From assembly GCF_013408655.1 (NCBI RefSeq), contig NZ_JACCBP010000001.1, positions 1,550,001 to 1,614,000 on the forward strand: DNA of 64,000 nucleotides, written 5' to 3'. The notes under the pieces are model-generated. The model was not told where the DNA came from. It saw only the letters and a program-made list of their open reading frames with translations, and ran no database searches. This document shows, piece after piece, positions 41,438 to 48,627 of the stretch. Each line of letters opens with the position of its first letter. Position 1 is the stretch's first letter. This DNA is from Pigmentiphaga litoralis (lineage in GTDB: Bacteria; Pseudomonadota; Gammaproteobacteria; Burkholderiales; Burkholderiaceae_B). Made by a program: the position numbers and the translations under genes.

Positions 41438-41884
41438 GTGAAAATTTTCGAAGCCCTGCGCCAAAGCCACGACGTGCAACGCGAACTTGCCCGCCAACTG
41501 GTCGAAACCAGTGGCGACACGCCTGAACGCGCCACGCTGTTCAAGTCCTTGAAGACCGAGCTGGCGGCGCATGCGCTGTCGGAAGAACGGCATTTCTATG
41601 CCCCGCTCATGGTCGAGGATTCGGGCATCGACCTGTCACGTCATGCCATCGCGGAACATCATGAAATGGACGAGATGGTGGAAGACCTGGAAGCGACCGA
41701 GCCGTCCAGCCCGGCCTGGTTGCCGCTGGCGAAAAAGCTGGCGCACAAGGTGCACCATCATCTGGAAGAAGAGGAGCATGGTTTCTTTCAAAGCGCCGGC
41801 AAGATCCTGACCGACAAGCAGAAAGATGCGCTGGCCGTGGCCTACCTGAAGGACTACGAAGCCGACAAGGCCAAGGCGGCCTGA
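41438..41884 (+). CDS. Hemerythrin HHE domain protein (GTG start)
   Basis: A 148-residue four-helix protein. The iron-binding pattern fits His in LRQSHDVQREL (near 11), His-Glu in HALSEERHFYAP (near 46-53), His in AIAEHHEMDEM (near 72), and His in AHKVHHHLEEEEHGFF (near 105-114). Such proteins bind a diiron centre and respond to oxygen, NO or iron stress. The start is GTG at 41438; the upstream frame is poorly coding. Monocistronic. Confidence 0.88.
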   Translation: MKIFEALRQSHDVQRELARQLVETSGDTPERATLFKSLKTELAAHALSEERHFYAPLMVEDSGIDLSRHAIAEHHEMDEMVEDLEATEPSSPAWLPLAKKLAHKVHHHLEEEEHGFFQSAGKILTDKQKDALAVAYLKDYEADKAKAA

Positions 41885-42004
41885 CCCGCTATCAGTACGG
41901 GCTGGCGTACCCCAAAAGCCCGTGGCGCGGTGTGCAATACGCGCCACACCTCGAGAACTTAAAGCGATTTCGAGACGCTTCCCATTCCGGCAAAGGCCTG
42001 CCTA

Positions 42005-42024
42005 TACTGTATATCCATACAGTA
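42005..42024 (+). promoter_or_regulatory. LexA (SOS) box
   Basis: TACTGTATATCCATACAGTA is a 20-base near-perfect palindrome with the CTGT-N8-ACAG core of proteobacterial LexA sites; only the central two bases break symmetry. It ends 19 bases before the ATG of the gene at 42044, inside the promoter zone. The pair at 42044-42631 is therefore likely induced by DNA damage. Confidence 0.85.
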
Positions 42025-42043
42025 TTTGAAAGGAGGTTCTTTG

Positions 42044-42274
42044 ATGGAACAGTACAAGGACTACGCCGTTGACATCCGCACCACGGCCACTGCCGGCGGG
42101 TATTGCGCCCGCCTGGCCCTGCGCCGTGGCGGCGCCCGCCCCCGCCGCGCCGCCATTTATTTCCCTCCCCTGGGACCGCAGCCCACGGCTGCCAGCGCCG
42201 CCGATCACGCGCTGCGATGGGCCCAGGCTTTCATCGACGAAAACGCGACGCCCGCGCACCCCATCCAGCCATAG
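42044..42274 (+). CDS. Small SOS-controlled protein, unknown function
   Basis: A 76-residue protein, MEQYKDYAVDIRTTATAGGY at the start, then an Arg-rich centre (LRRGGARPRRAAIYFP) and a helical end (ADHALRWAQAFIDENA). No family recognised. The AGGAGG ribosome site is ideal. A LexA box lies just upstream. The next gene starts 12 bases after the stop, so they form one unit. Small size and basic centre would allow nucleic acid binding, but this is speculation. Confidence 0.7.
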   Translation: MEQYKDYAVDIRTTATAGGYCARLALRRGGARPRRAAIYFPPLGPQPTAASAADHALRWAQAFIDENATPAHPIQP

Positions 42275-42286
42275 CCGGGGTGTGCC

Positions 42287-42631
42287 ATGCATTGCATCGT
42301 TCAACGTACCCACCGGCAGGGTCAACCTCTGGAGATCGGCCGCATGGACGGCCCCTATTCGGGCCGGGTCCATATGTATTCGCAATACCGGGCCGACCTG
42401 CGGCGCCAGGTCGTCATTATGGAACTGGCCGCCGAGGGCAATCCCGGCCAACCCAACTACCGCCAGGCCATTCCGCAACTGCTCGACCCGGCCATGCTCA
42501 CTTTCAATTCCGAAAAAGGCATGGTCATAACCGGGTTCGAAGAATTGAGCGGCGCGCGGTACTACCAGGGGTGGTGGCTGCAGTGGTATCACCAACTGCC
42601 AGACTGGTTCCTGGCCACCACCCGCAACTGA
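42287..42631 (+). CDS. Second gene of the SOS unit, unknown function
   Basis: A 114-residue cytosolic protein, MHCIVQRTHRQGQPLEIGRM at the start. Aromatic-rich near its end (YYQGWWLQWYHQLPDWFLAT). I do not recognise the family. It has no signal or membrane helix. It is downstream of the 76-residue gene, with 12 bases between, and so probably under the same LexA box. Function unknown; the neighbour has similar codon use, so both look native rather than phage-derived. Confidence 0.7.
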   Translation: MHCIVQRTHRQGQPLEIGRMDGPYSGRVHMYSQYRADLRRQVVIMELAAEGNPGQPNYRQAIPQLLDPAMLTFNSEKGMVITGFEELSGARYYQGWWLQWYHQLPDWFLATTRN

Positions 42632-42802
42632 ATCTGCGACTCGCAAACGGCGACACCGGGACTGCTTGACCCTTCAGGATGGCATGCCTATGATTGGATC
42701 GCTTTCATTATTGAGCATAGTCAAAATTAAGCTTGATCAATAAAACGGATCGATAAAAATACGCCTGCCGCCATGTAGTGGCGGGCGCTGGAGGAGACCC
42801 CC

Positions 42803-44542
42803 ATGAACACCGGATTCCCGTCCCACATGTCGAAGGTGGCGGGCGGCGCCCTGCTGTTGTCGCTTGCCGCGTGCTTTGGCGGCGGCGACGACGATGACGC
42901 CCCCACCCCGCCCCCGGCCGGCGGTGCCCGCACCCTGTCCGAAGCATCCTGTACCGCCATCGGTTCGCGTACCTACACGAACAGCCCGGTATTCGGCGCC
43001 AGCCGCTGGGTTGCCGACGGCGCCGAAAAGGCCGCCACCACGGCCACGACTGCCCTGCCCGCCCACTGCGTGGTCCAGGGCACCATCGCGCCGCGCACCG
43101 GCGCAAGCGGCGTGCCCTACGGCATTCAATTCGAACTGCGGCTGCCCGCCGCGTGGAACGGCCGCTTCTTCTTCCAGGGCGGCGGCGGCACCGACGGGTC
43201 CGTCTCGCCCGCCACCGGCATCATCAACAGCGCCGACGGCGGCAACAACGTGGCGCTGTCGCAAGGCTATGCCGTCGTGTCCACCGACGGCGGTCACCAG
43301 AACAGCACGCTAGCCACCACCGCCGCGTTCGGCGCCGACCCGCAGGCCCGCATCGACTGGGGCTATAACGCGATCGACAAAACCGCCGTCACCGCCAAAT
43401 CCATCATCCAGGGAAGCTACGGCGCCGCGCCCGACAAGTCCTACTTCCTGGGTTGCTCCAACGGCGGACGCCAGGGCATGATGTTCACCCAGCGCTTTCC
43501 CGATGCCTTCGATGGCGTGGTTGCCGGCGCGCCGGTCATGGACCTTGGCAGCATCACCGCCGCCGAAATCTGGGGCCTGCAGCAGTTCGCCAAGGCCGCC
43601 CCGCGCGACAGCACGGGCGGCATCGTGTGGTCGCAATCCTTCTCGCCCGCCGACCGGCAACTGTTCACCGACGCGTACGTCAAGGCCTGCGACGCCACCG
43701 ACGGCGTAGCCGACGGCATGGTCCAGAACCCGTTTGCGTGCAGCTTCGACCCCGCCGTCCTGCAATGCACCGGCGCCAAGAACGACACCTGCTGGACGCC
43801 CACCCAGGTCGCCGCCGTTAAGGCCACGGTCGCCGGCCCGATCACGTCCAGCGGCGGGCCGGTCCGCGTGCCAGGCTACTCTCTGCCGCGCGAAACGCCT
43901 GTCGAAGGCTACGTTGTCGACACCGGCTGGATGACGCCATCAGGCCAGCCGTCCCGGCTGATCGGCACGGCCACCTCCTTGCCCGGCGACTTTGCATTCG
44001 GCGCGGTCCAGGTGCCCTACTTGCACATCACGCCGCCCGACCCCACCTTCGATCCCCTGGGCATCAACTGGGACACCTACCCCAACCGCATGACCATCGA
44101 CCCGCCGTGGCTGTCGACCCGCCTCGACATCTCCGCCTACAAGGCGCGCGGCGGCAAGATGATCTTCTATCACGGCATTTCCGACCCCGGCCCCAGCGTG
44201 TCCAACACCATCAACTACTACAACCGGCTGGTGCAGTTGAACGGTGGCCTCACGCCCACCCAGGCCTTTGCGCGACTGTTCATGGTCCCCGCCATGACAC
44301 ATTGTTCGGGCGGCCCGTCGACCGATTCGTTCGACCCGCTGACGGCGATCGTGAACTGGGTGGAAAAAGGCGTCGCCCCCGAGCAGATGGTGGCCAAGGC
44401 CCGCGCGGCCAATGCCAGCGGCCTGACCTCGGTCAAGCCCGCGATCCCGGCCGACCGCACCCGGCCGCTGTGCGCCTATCCGAAGACGGCGGTGTACAAG
44501 GCGGGGAATGTGGAAAAGGCGGAGAGTTTTGTGTGTCAGTGA
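42803..44542 (+). CDS. Tannase/feruloyl esterase family lipoprotein
   Basis: A 579-residue secreted hydrolase. The signal peptide ends in a lipobox (LSLAAC, Cys24), followed by an Asp run and Pro-rich linker, so it is a lipoprotein. The tannase fold begins near residue 45. The nucleophile Ser is in FLGCSNGGRQGM near 218; the acid is in FYHGISDPGPS near 457 and the His in TNHCSGGPSTD-like MTHCSGGPSTDSF near 500. The Cys-Ser and His-Cys pairing (GCS and HCS) is the tannase-family signature disulfide. It splits ester bonds of gallic or ferulic acid type substrates, or mono-ester analogues such as MHET. GGAGGA ribosome site. Confidence 0.9.
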   Translation: MNTGFPSHMSKVAGGALLLSLAACFGGGDDDDAPTPPPAGGARTLSEASCTAIGSRTYTNSPVFGASRWVADGAEKAATTATTALPAHCVVQGTIAPRTGASGVPYGIQFELRLPAAWNGRFFFQGGGGTDGSVSPATGIINSADGGNNVALSQGYAVVSTDGGHQNSTLATTAAFGADPQARIDWGYNAIDKTAVTAKSIIQGSYGAAPDKSYFLGCSNGGRQGMMFTQRFPDAFDGVVAGAPVMDLGSITAAEIWGLQQFAKAAPRDSTGGIVWSQSFSPADRQLFTDAYVKACDATDGVADGMVQNPFACSFDPAVLQCTGAKNDTCWTPTQVAAVKATVAGPITSSGGPVRVPGYSLPRETPVEGYVVDTGWMTPSGQPSRLIGTATSLPGDFAFGAVQVPYLHITPPDPTFDPLGINWDTYPNRMTIDPPWLSTRLDISAYKARGGKMIFYHGISDPGPSVSNTINYYNRLVQLNGGLTPTQAFARLFMVPAMTHCSGGPSTDSFDPLTAIVNWVEKGVAPEQMVAKARAANASGLTSVKPAIPADRTRPLCAYPKTAVYKAGNVEKAESFVCQ

Positions 44543-45116: not shown

Positions 45117-45433
45117 AGTAGATTTTGCGTTCGGCAGTTTGTGATCGGCGCAGGCGGGATTCGAATAAGGGATAACCGTTGCGAACGGGCAATGTAGCCG
45201 TTCTGACGGGTTAACACATAGAACGTCCCGTTAAAGTAATGCCGAGCTATGTATGTCGTCCATCGGATCCTTATCGGAGCGCGATCACCGCAGCATCTTG
45301 AAGGACATCGACTCCATGATGAATATCCATTCAATGCGTGGCACACGTCATGGCCACAGGCTTGCGATTCTGGTCACTTCGGTTCAAATGCACTCGCGTC
45401 TTCCAAACAAGATTGAGGTCACAAAGGATCAAC
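45117..45433. other. Gene-free stretch at the left edge of the degraded island
   Basis: No convincing gene. Base composition falls compared with the left flank. A GGATTCGAA sequence at 45157-45165 recalls a tRNA T loop, but no tRNA fold could be built. I saw no credible HicA toxin remnant before the truncated hicB. Confidence 0.5.
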
Positions 45434-45703
45434 TTGCTCTACCCAGCTTATCTGCATCAAGACAACGAATCGGCCTATAGCTTGATATTTCCGGACCTAC
45501 CGGGATGCTACGCTGCGGCCGACGAACGGGCGGACCTGACAGCAGCAGCTCAGGAGGCGGTGGAGGCCCATTGTTATGGCGAGCCCGACATACCTCTCGC
45601 AAGCGAGCCCGCAGCATGGGAAACACATCCGGACTACAAGGGCGGAGCCTGGGTGTGCATAGACCTCGATCTAACGAAAGTGGCGCTGGGATCACCTAGC
45701 TAG
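45434..45703 (+). pseudogene. hicB: Truncated HicB-family antitoxin (lacks DNA-binding domain)
   Basis: The 89-residue product opens LLYPAYLHQDNESAYSLIFP and continues DLPGCYAAADERADLTAAAQ, EAVEAH, the HicB RNase-H-like neutralising domain. It ends at LDLTKVALGSPS, where family members carry on into a ribbon-helix-helix DNA-binding domain of about 40 residues; this is missing. The start is probably TTG at 45434, preceded by AAAGGA at 45423-45428. No HicA toxin gene is seen on either side. It is most likely a decayed orphan, though a shortened working antitoxin cannot be excluded. Confidence 0.65.
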
Positions 45704-45970
45704 CTGCAGAACGTCGCAGTCTGAAAGCGTACCTGTTCACGCGACAGAGCCTACCTTTTCCGTGGCGGCATTTTTCGATAAGCAGCGGTCAATGCCGTGG
45801 TCACGTATTCATCAAGAATCGGCTTGGCCTGAAGCTTGACATCATCGCGTCAGCGGGCACCTCCAAAGTCGCGACGCCGCTACGTCGCGGGAATCACTGG
45901 TGGGTAGTAAGCCTTGCTGCTACAACATGCTTGGGCAACGCGTTCCCGCACCCTCACTGAAGGATTAAGC

Positions 45971-46120
45971 ATGGCAACGACCAAGAAGTCCAACGAAACC
46001 ACCTCAGCAAAGGCAGCCACTGCTGCATCGAAGACGCTTAAAGACCCAAAATCGTCGAAAGACGCGAAAACGGCATCCGGCTCTGCTTTGACGCAGAAAG
46101 TGAAGGGCAAAAGCAAGTAG
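45971..46120 (+). CDS. Small Lys/Ala/Ser-rich protein
   Basis: A 49-residue basic protein (ATTKKSNETTSAKAATAASK start, then a SALTQKVKGKSK end). Similar short proteins with AASKTL-type and SGSALTQ repeats occur widely in proteobacteria in accessory regions; function unknown. A GAAGGAT site lies 7 bases upstream of the ATG. Nothing functional can be deduced beyond a possible nucleic-acid affinity from its charge. Confidence 0.6.
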   Translation: MATTKKSNETTSAKAATAASKTLKDPKSSKDAKTASGSALTQKVKGKSK

Positions 46121-46272
46121 TTAGTCATTATCGGATAGTCCCGTTACAGCTGCATGAGCAACATCCCAGCCGTGCTCAGCGGGTGGGCACATTACTCCCG
46201 CCGACCTTGTAAAGGCCGTCGGGAAGCTTTTCTAATGCGGCCAAGGCTACAACTCTCCTGAGGAAAGAAAGT

Positions 46273-46317
46273 ATGCATAATTCTCTCTACGGCGAAGCAC
46301 TGCGAACCGCTGCCTAA
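46273..46317 (+). other. Possible 14-residue leader ORF
   Basis: ATG at 46273 preceded by GAGGAAAG and followed by 14 codons (MHNSLYGEALRTAA) and TAA, 26 bases before the next gene. Could be a leader peptide, but no attenuator-like structure was found. Low support. Confidence 0.2.
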
Positions 46318-46343
46318 CTTATCAACCTTATACGGAGTGTTCA

Positions 46344-47018
46344 ATGCAGATGTCCCTGTCGCGACGGCTTTCTGAGGCTGTAGGAAGTTGGCTGCACTTC
46401 GAATTCTGTTGCCACCGCGCGGGACTATTTTCCGAATCAGCCTTGAAATCGGCGGTTGGCCAAGTCATTAGCTCTTTGCCGGCGAATATCAAGGGGGCTC
46501 GTGTTTACGCGGACGCAAAGCATGCGGGGCTCCCTCGAAGTTCGAATCGCGGTCGGCCTCCGTCTGTCGACTTTGTGCTGGTGCTGCCTAATAATGGCCT
46601 CGGATCTAGCGACGCAGAGGTGGTAGTTGAGACGAAGTGGGCTGGTTCGAGCCACTGCACGGCTGCGAGAATCTTTCGTGACTTCGTACGGTTGGCGCTT
46701 ATCAAGCACCACAGTCCAAGTGCTAAGTGCATCTTTCTACTAGCCGGCAACAACCGGGAGTTAGCCGCAGTCTTAGCTGCGTCCCCGTTTACTTCTGCAC
46801 GTCTCACCCATGGCATCAGCAAAGGGAATCTAAGGAAAGTGAGATTAAATAAGTTCAGCCTGCTCCAGTCATCTGTAGCAGACGACGCAATGCGAGGCTG
46901 GCAAGGCGTGCCAGCTGATCTTGCATTTCTGACTAGTTGCAGCGGAATCCATCCAGCGCCCACGGATGGGAATCGTTATGATTTCGGCGCTATCGCTTGG
47001 GAAATTGGCCTCCAATAA
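46344..47018 (+). CDS. Hypothetical protein with PD-(D/E)XK-like motif
   Basis: A 224-residue protein. The pattern VDFVLVLP followed by AEVVVETKWAG places Asp76, Glu96 and Lys98 in the D-X(n)-E-X-K layout of the restriction-endonuclease-like fold, with strands on both sides as expected. Several conserved-looking helices follow (IFRDFVRLALIKHH). I do not recognise the family. The ATG (46344) follows a GGAG site. It is more AT-rich than the chromosome core and lies in a degraded island, so it is probably acquired. A role in defence or DNA processing is a guess from fold only. Confidence 0.6.
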   Translation: MQMSLSRRLSEAVGSWLHFEFCCHRAGLFSESALKSAVGQVISSLPANIKGARVYADAKHAGLPRSSNRGRPPSVDFVLVLPNNGLGSSDAEVVVETKWAGSSHCTAARIFRDFVRLALIKHHSPSAKCIFLLAGNNRELAAVLAASPFTSARLTHGISKGNLRKVRLNKFSLLQSSVADDAMRGWQGVPADLAFLTSCSGIHPAPTDGNRYDFGAIAWEIGLQ

Positions 47019-47929
47019 AATCGGTAGTAGACGCTGGTTTGAGCCGCGCTTACCTAGTATCTCAACGGTGGGATGCAACCGAATGTCGGCGTTCTTGCGA
47101 AATTCGCGGAAGTTTTAGGTGCGCCTCTTCGGATATCAGCCCTGACTTCGCTGCGCAGATAAATCGAATTGCGTCCCTTCTGCCGGGGGGCACCTGCCAG
47201 CGCTCGGGCACGAGAAGCGAAGAGCTTTGAAGTTCCCACCAACCACTCCGGAGGGACAGGTCGATGGCCGTTCACGCGGATACGTGAAGAAGACGTACAC
47301 GCGCTGTCGCAAGACGATCGGACAACAATCGATAGAGCTTTGACCCTGGCCACTGCTTAGGTGGGGTGAACGTACTCGTGGCCGATCCGCCTGGGGCGGC
47401 CCCCCGCGCCAAGGCCGCCAAGGTCGTCTGCGACGCCAGCGCAGCGGCCGCGAACGATGCGGACCACATTGCGATCCGGACGGTTGTCGTCAAGATCGCG
47501 CCCTGCATTGCTGGATTTGATACCGTGCGACAGCGCGATGTGGTATCGGTGGCAGTCAGTTTCTAGCCAAACAGTGGGTACAGAAGCACGGCTACCGCTG
47601 GAAAGCGCACTATGCCACGGCTGCTCAAGGTATGAGCACGTGGCTGCGAGTGTAGGAAGAGGACATCACCGTATTCAGCAGAAATAACACAACTCAGCAA
47701 GCTGACGAAGTCTTTGCGATTAACCATGAAGGCGAGATTACTATCAACTGCTAAAAAAGCGCTTGGGAAATTGATAGCTGTACTCGGATAATGACGACCA
47801 GCAGCGATATTTGCCGACTATGTTCTCCACACTGGCCGTTAACACTGATCAAGTGGTCTTACCTTCAGGCTGACACTCCAGATCGTTCAAACGCTGCATT
47901 CAAACCAATAAGCTTCACACGGGGTACAC
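47019..47929. other. Gene-free degraded stretch
   Basis: About 900 bases with only short open frames and no family signal. Some frames show coding-like runs (for example around 47580-47650), which could be remnants of decayed genes, but I cannot assign any of them. No tRNA or repeat found. Confidence 0.5.
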
Positions 47930-48127
47930 ATGAGCAATTCTGATAACTCGAAGCCTACAAGACCGAAGCCGTCCCAGCATGGGGACGTGACTGTAAACAA
48001 AATCCAACGTAAGGATACGACCGATGGCCACGTCGTTAATTCGAACACGATCTTCAGAACCCAGCCCAGAAGAACTGATCCAACTGGAGGCGGAGACAAA
48101 AAAGATCCTTCAAACAAAGGAAAGTGA
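47930..48127 (+). CDS. Small polar protein, first gene of a two-gene cassette
   Basis: A 65-residue low-complexity protein rich in Lys, Pro, Thr and Asp (MSNSDNSKPTRPKPSQHGDV, ending GGGDKKDPSNKGK). No fold or membrane segment expected; probably disordered. Its stop TGA overlaps the start ATG of the next gene (TGATG), so the two are translationally coupled. The pairing of a short polar gene with a 2-TM gene suggests a working unit. No strong ribosome site at 47930. Confidence 0.55.
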   Translation: MSNSDNSKPTRPKPSQHGDVTVNKIQRKDTTDGHVVNSNTIFRTQPRRTDPTGGGDKKDPSNKGK

Positions 48128-48627
48128 TGTCAGACCCAGCCAGCGAGCTTGAATATGACCTTCGTATTAGCATTAACTACCATCGTAAGCGTGAGTTTTT
48201 CTTCCGTTGCGTAGAGGGCTTTTCGAAGGCGGTATCGCTGCTGGCACTAGCGTCACTTGGTTTTGACGTTAATTGGTTTACATGGAGTATTGCGATGCTG
48301 AGCGCCGGGTTCACGATCGCAACCATCGTGATCGATTGCTCGGGACTTGCCGCCAAACATAAAGAGCTGGCGGGTAGATTCTGCGACATCTTAGCTAAAA
48401 CTCCAGTGGCCAACAGCATCCCAGAGTTGCGAACCGAGTTCTTCAAGGTTTCAGGTGATGAACCACCGAGCCTTCATGGGCTAAGTCAGTTGTGCCAAGA
48501 CGAGCAAGACGCAGCAGAAGGAAGAGCCGTCGATCCGAAACGTTTTACTTGGGGCCGGAGAACGGCTGCACAGTTCGGCTTTGGGCAAAGAGATATCGAC
48601 TTCCCGAAGCAGAGTGCCGACGTCTGA
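48127..48627 (+). CDS. Two-transmembrane protein, SLATT-like
   Basis: A 166-residue protein. An N-terminal helix (LRISINYHRKREFFFRCVE) leads into two membrane helices (about residues 33-47 and 52-70), a long cytosolic helix (AAKHKELAGRFCDILAKTP), and a DEPPSLHGLSQLCQDEQ region. This helix-2TM-helix layout recalls SLATT-type effector proteins of nucleotide-signalling defence systems; that is inference, not a match. The ATG at 48127 overlaps the previous stop; GTG at 48124 is an alternative. It is intact, while its neighbours in the island are broken. Confidence 0.6.
   Translation: MSDPASELEYDLRISINYHRKREFFFRCVEGFSKAVSLLALASLGFDVNWFTWSIAMLSAGFTIATIVIDCSGLAAKHKELAGRFCDILAKTPVANSIPELRTEFFKVSGDEPPSLHGLSQLCQDEQDAAEGRAVDPKRFTWGRRTAAQFGFGQRDIDFPKQSADV

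Follow-up and report, generated by a model that had tools for sequence, protein, structure and literature searches.

A predicted LexA-controlled pair of small genes carries a chromosomal member of a phage protein family often encoded beside SRAP

Small genes under LexA control are known from temperate phages. According to PMC3121763, Gifsy prophages carry a LexA box, a dinI homologue and an antirepressor, and Tum of phage 186 and AntC of N15 are LexA-controlled antirepressors. SRAP proteins (YedK/HMCES, PF02586) shield abasic sites (PMC8424206); they are present in proteobacterial prophages, and SRAP has been reported beside small β-rich ImuB-C proteins (PMC3765255). Here we compare with these systems a pair of small genes, A and B, from a stretch of 64,000 nucleotides of Pigmentiphaga litoralis (contig NZ_JACCBP010000001.1; the whole stretch is referred to as the window). 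Judged from the sequence, A and B form one predicted operon that is likely repressed by LexA and transcribed upon DNA damage. Its features are as follows.

42005–42024, no strand assigned: LexA-type SOS box TACTGTATATCCATACAGTA, read from the sequence and identical in the P. litoralis locus L001.
41979–42008, plus strand: predicted sigma-70 promoter TTCCCA-18-TATACT from a promoter scan, its −10 hexamer overlapped by the box.
42031–42036, plus strand: AGGAGG ribosome-binding site of gene A, read from the sequence.
42044–42274, plus strand: gene A, 76 residues, basic, predicted β-β-β-α; 18 silent and 2 replacement codon changes relative to L001.
42287–42631, plus strand: gene B, 114 residues, phrog_5560 family; six predicted strands and a C-terminal helix.

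The sequence-only reading had placed a near-consensus LexA site 19 bases ahead of two tightly linked genes of 76 and 114 residues, and both the site and its coordinates were confirmed. The box differs from the 20-nt symmetric consensus at 2 of 20 positions; the second-best position in the window has 8 mismatches, and a base-composition model predicts 4e-6 sites with ≤ 2 mismatches per 64 kb. The ATG of gene A (42044) is separated from the box by 19 nt, and the gap between A and B is 12 nt. An exact CTGT-N8-ACAG occurs once in the window, at this box. Tolerating one mismatch raises the number to 16, versus 16.6 expected by chance, so the loose motif alone has little meaning. The promoter scan of 41880–42810 returned two promoter-like sites (0.3 expected), and the box constitutes a near-consensus palindromic operator over a predicted promoter, as looked for in a member of the LexA (SOS) regulon. 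Within the 80 nt from 41945 to 42024 there is one change relative to L001, and the box itself is unchanged. In principle the box could be a chance match, with A–B lying outside the SOS response, and the one clear distant relative of gene A (L251) indeed has no exact box within 1.5 kb on either side. However, the very small number of such sites expected per window, the invariance of the box in P. litoralis and the recurrence of LexA-type boxes before B across phages, where the control pattern gave none (see below), make such a coincidence very improbable.

The host genome (6.17 Mb) contains 15 sites matching the 16-nt core CTGTATATATATACAG with ≤ 3 mismatches, versus 1 for the same pattern read backwards. 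Boxes precede recA (L003), lexA (L006) and imuA-imuB-dnaE2 (L007, L260), as well as a UvrD-like helicase gene (L009) and a radical-SAM photolyase-like gene (L017), all assigned by protein reading; the genes downstream of the boxes at L005, L010–L013, L016 and L018 were left without assignment. Because the same type of operator stands ahead of known host SOS genes, A–B is a predicted member of the host LexA regulon. In addition, codon changes in gene B relative to L001 are 26 silent and 0 replacement, and the dominance of silent changes in both genes indicates that A and B are real and constrained. The SOS-controlled unit of two small genes proposed at the outset is thus well supported at the level of sequence comparison, by the host regulon, by the constraint and by the recurrence of the box with B.

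The core of the window box, CTGTATATCCATACAG, is found twice more in the host genome, at G000:C1:387287 (L005) and G000:C3:139451 (L011). At L005, an open reading frame of 64 residues, with no match in Pfam or PHROGs, begins 53 nt past the box. At G000:C1:4407795 (L010), a frame of 312 residues lies 92 nt downstream of the box.

Neither protein had at first seemed placeable in a family, which does not hold for gene B: residues 23–98 match the profile phrog_5560 (PHROGs v4, unknown function) with an E-value of 2.8e-7. Pfam has no match to B or to the 50 family members scanned, and NCBIfam has none to B. Relatives of types I and II (see below) likewise match phrog_5560; the library notes no function or SOS control for this family, and the window copy differs from it in being chromosomal. 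Counting the host genome itself, the B family is present in 7 of 61 relatives and, with some matches partial, in 52 of 268 genomes and 13 of 43 genera of the taxonomic family. In a class-level scan the host was the sole carrier among 369 genomes, and a phylum-level scan found B in 4 of 398, the other three matches being partial or weak. The seed alignment retrieved 105 viral contigs with B, and a query with a member from a Pseudomonas phage retrieved 143; 80 contigs were kept from each scan, and the two sets may overlap. Named phages with B are Bordetella phage vB_BbrS_PHB09 and Pseudomonas phages pAN, PG1 and Medea1, and a plasmid search found no relatives. By these profile and homology matches, the family of gene B is common among phages and has yet to be characterised. 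A literature search covering titles and the starts of abstracts, with most subscription journals outside its coverage, returned nothing on this gene family.

Further copies of B were noted in two genomes. P. litoralis genome G006, placed in the same genus as the host, has two more among phage-like genes, at G006:C1:1842519 and G006:C2:913718 (L026, L028); a box stands beside the start in one and none lies within 45 nt in the other. G015 (L024, L027) has a frame-changed, broken copy, with a LexA-type box still ahead of it and SRAP upstream.

Three groups of loci could be distinguished. In type I, the box is immediately ahead of B, with a gap of 14–17 nt in most loci. Among the 107 type I loci with upstream sequence, an exact CTGT-N8-ACAG lies within 45 nt of B in 84 and a site with ≤ 1 mismatch in 100, whereas the reversed pattern was found in none. 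When near-identical upstream DNA was removed, these values became 36/49 and 43/49, again with no control hit. When 31 non-redundant sites were aligned, information content rose to 2 bits in the CTGT and ACAG columns and was at or below 0.62 bits in columns more than 3 or 4 bases beyond the 20-mer. In type II the order is box, a gene of the 80–88-residue class, then B. This first gene was identified by reading in 70 of 71 loci and is phrog_6137 (unknown function) in the two tested. An exact box is present 254–295 nt ahead of B in 62 of the 68 type II loci with 330 nt of upstream sequence (control 0). The third, small group (pAN, PG1 and nine viral contigs) has SRAP 2 nt ahead of B; its upstream sequence, available for up to 1.2 kb, contains no exact box.

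The window locus combines features of these groups. Its box-to-B spacing of 262 nt corresponds to the type II layout, its B sequence is nearer type I (38–47% identity, versus 23–27% to type II and 30% to the pAN type), and its first gene differs; a reading of the proteins shows no resemblance between gene A and the first gene of type II. Among the B sequences compared, residues R7, R40, E85, Y92, Q94 and W96 are invariant. The box recurs with B; a near-identical gene A was found only in G006, with a distant relative in L251. These upstream sequences show B accompanied by a LexA-type switch in different phages, for the most part in viral contigs, and in a chromosome. In the type II viral contigs (L155–L225), the phrog_6137-class gene between box and B is conserved and helical-looking.

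The neighbourhood of B offers a clue to function. Of the 102 type I loci that extend far enough to judge, 81 have a same-strand SRAP gene adjoining B (78 upstream, 3 downstream; 10 more were too short). The two genes are linked in three arrangements, namely SRAP-box-B (e.g. L064), box-B-SRAP (e.g. L023) and SRAP-B (pAN, PG1). In whole records, which may be fragments, SRAP was found in 24/26 of type I, 2/2 of the pAN-type viral records and 3/4 of the named phages. B itself is not SRAP, and the passages of PMC3765255 examined here do not mention it. A small SRAP partner is plausible, because that paper reports SRAP beside small ImuB-C proteins. Like the stand-alone ImuB-C proteins of SOS neighbourhoods described there, B is small and mostly β-strand; however, an hhalign comparison of B with the C-terminus of this genome's ImuB, a single sequence, gave a probability of 0.7%. 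The product of gene B is predicted to be all-β and loosely PH-like, with six predicted strands and a C-terminal helix; the PH superfold (RanBD, EVH1, PH) is a seven-strand barrel capped by a C-terminal helix.

We tentatively favour, at somewhat less than even confidence, a reading in which the A–B operon is likely LexA-controlled and B is a small β-rich adaptor in SRAP-linked DNA-damage tolerance. LexA would repress the unit by covering the −10 element, and RecA-driven cleavage of LexA would release it. B would then bind a conserved protein, with SRAP and proteins at damaged single-stranded DNA as the most likely candidates, and so let replication go on while abasic and other lesions stay shielded. 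The window copy would be a gene from a phage family that came to rest at an unremarkable place in the chromosome; there B would act in trans with an SRAP encoded elsewhere in the genome. Gene A, whose product is small, basic and of a different family, would have been placed behind the same switch. Of the roles suggested from the sequence at first sight, the SRAP linkage favours the repair helper, and no evidence emerged for toxicity or for a block of division: the PADLOC library of defence systems has no match to A or B (up to E 1), and both products are hydrophilic overall (grand average of hydropathy, GRAVY, −0.42 and −0.59, respectively). Several observations weigh against the adaptor reading. 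No SRAP stands beside B in 21 of the 102 type I loci or in any of the 18 type II records, and SRAP does not adjoin the window copy, the host SRAP genes being found only at C1:3620175 and C2:552869.

The absence of SRAP from type II is also consistent with a different role, in which B is an SOS-induced host-takeover or modulating factor, acting for example on RecA, replication or cell division, and SRAP is a mere neighbour in an accessory region. The gene preceding B varies (SRAP, the 80-residue-class gene or A), and the neighbours of B in pAN, PG1 and Medea1 include integrase or lysis genes (in Medea1, both lysis genes and an integrase). The retention of SRAP beside B in the three gene orders of the type I and pAN-type loci speaks against mere proximity, and searches of Pfam, NCBIfam and PADLOC matched B to no known modulator. 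We consider this role unlikely, though worth keeping in mind.

The main alternative is an antirepressor operon, which the architecture of the pair also recalls. Like the Gifsy, 186 and N15 systems of PMC3121763, both the window and type II loci have a LexA box, a small first gene and a second small gene. B, or the small gene ahead of it, might therefore be a LexA-controlled temperate-phage antirepressor acting as GftA/GfoA of Gifsy, Tum and AntC do, and the window pair a stranded induction switch that could act in trans on other prophages; in type II, the antirepressor could equally be the first gene rather than B. The domain content of the phages is informative here. S24 domains, the mark of self-cleaving repressors, were found in 20/26 type I records, 2/2 pAN-type viral records, 4/4 named phages and 2/18 type II records, although S24 matches may not be the repressors themselves. 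The 16 type II records without S24 may need another SOS input, which is compatible with an antirepressor, whereas most type I phages, having S24 domains, would not need one. In contrast to the Gifsy operon, neither A nor B gave a DinI match in a Pfam scan up to E 10. Antirepressors should also track their repressors, yet B is conserved across phage types, and the window copy is constrained while lying outside any recognisable prophage. An antirepressor role thus appears improbable to us, if not negligible. A conserved host or repair partner fits the retention of B in phages with and without S24 and its constraint in the chromosome; taken with the SRAP linkage in three orders, these observations make an antirepressor specific to one repressor less likely than a conserved partner in repair or replication.

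The product of gene A was described from the sequence as Arg-rich, which is correct (8 Arg among 76 residues, isoelectric point 9.5).

Judged by its neighbours, the window copy does not lie in a recognisable prophage. Seven of ten neighbouring genes match Pfam, among them Mn catalase, hemerythrin, tannase/feruloyl esterase, DUF1232 and a HicB-like antitoxin; 4 of 9 match PHROGs, with no integrase or structural gene among these matches. The nearest tRNA genes are ∼ 7–8 kb from the pair. Nearby Ku and LigD genes had been offered as functional context. By reading, they lie at 29.3–33.3 kb; they do not bear on function, and an operon link can be dismissed because they are ∼ 9 kb away with other genes between. 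The window copy may have come from a phage. The region 45338–48627 contains, besides the HicB-like antitoxin gene, two that Pfam does not recognise (224 and 167 residues), the latter matching phrog_11791 (unknown function), which suggests a small variable stretch downstream of the pair. Elsewhere in the host, at G000:C2:552457–555472 (L004, L143), an SOS box with perfect core, AACTGTATATATATACAGTA, is followed by a frame of 118 residues and then by an SRAP gene split into two frames.

To our knowledge, little is known of the partners of bacterial SRAP. We speculate, regarding it as rather unlikely in this full form, that B is the missing SRAP partner: a LexA-triggered, PH-like adaptor brought by temperate phages to enable SRAP to shield abasic single-stranded DNA during damage-induced replication. 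One bacterial lineage would have adopted it into its own SOS response, along with a small, basic and new protein, A. B is a concrete candidate, since it is conserved, has its own LexA-type box, neighbours SRAP in numerous loci of temperate phages and stands alone in a chromosome. Knowing its role would show what these phages bring with them: a helper in repair, a switch for induction or a factor for host takeover.
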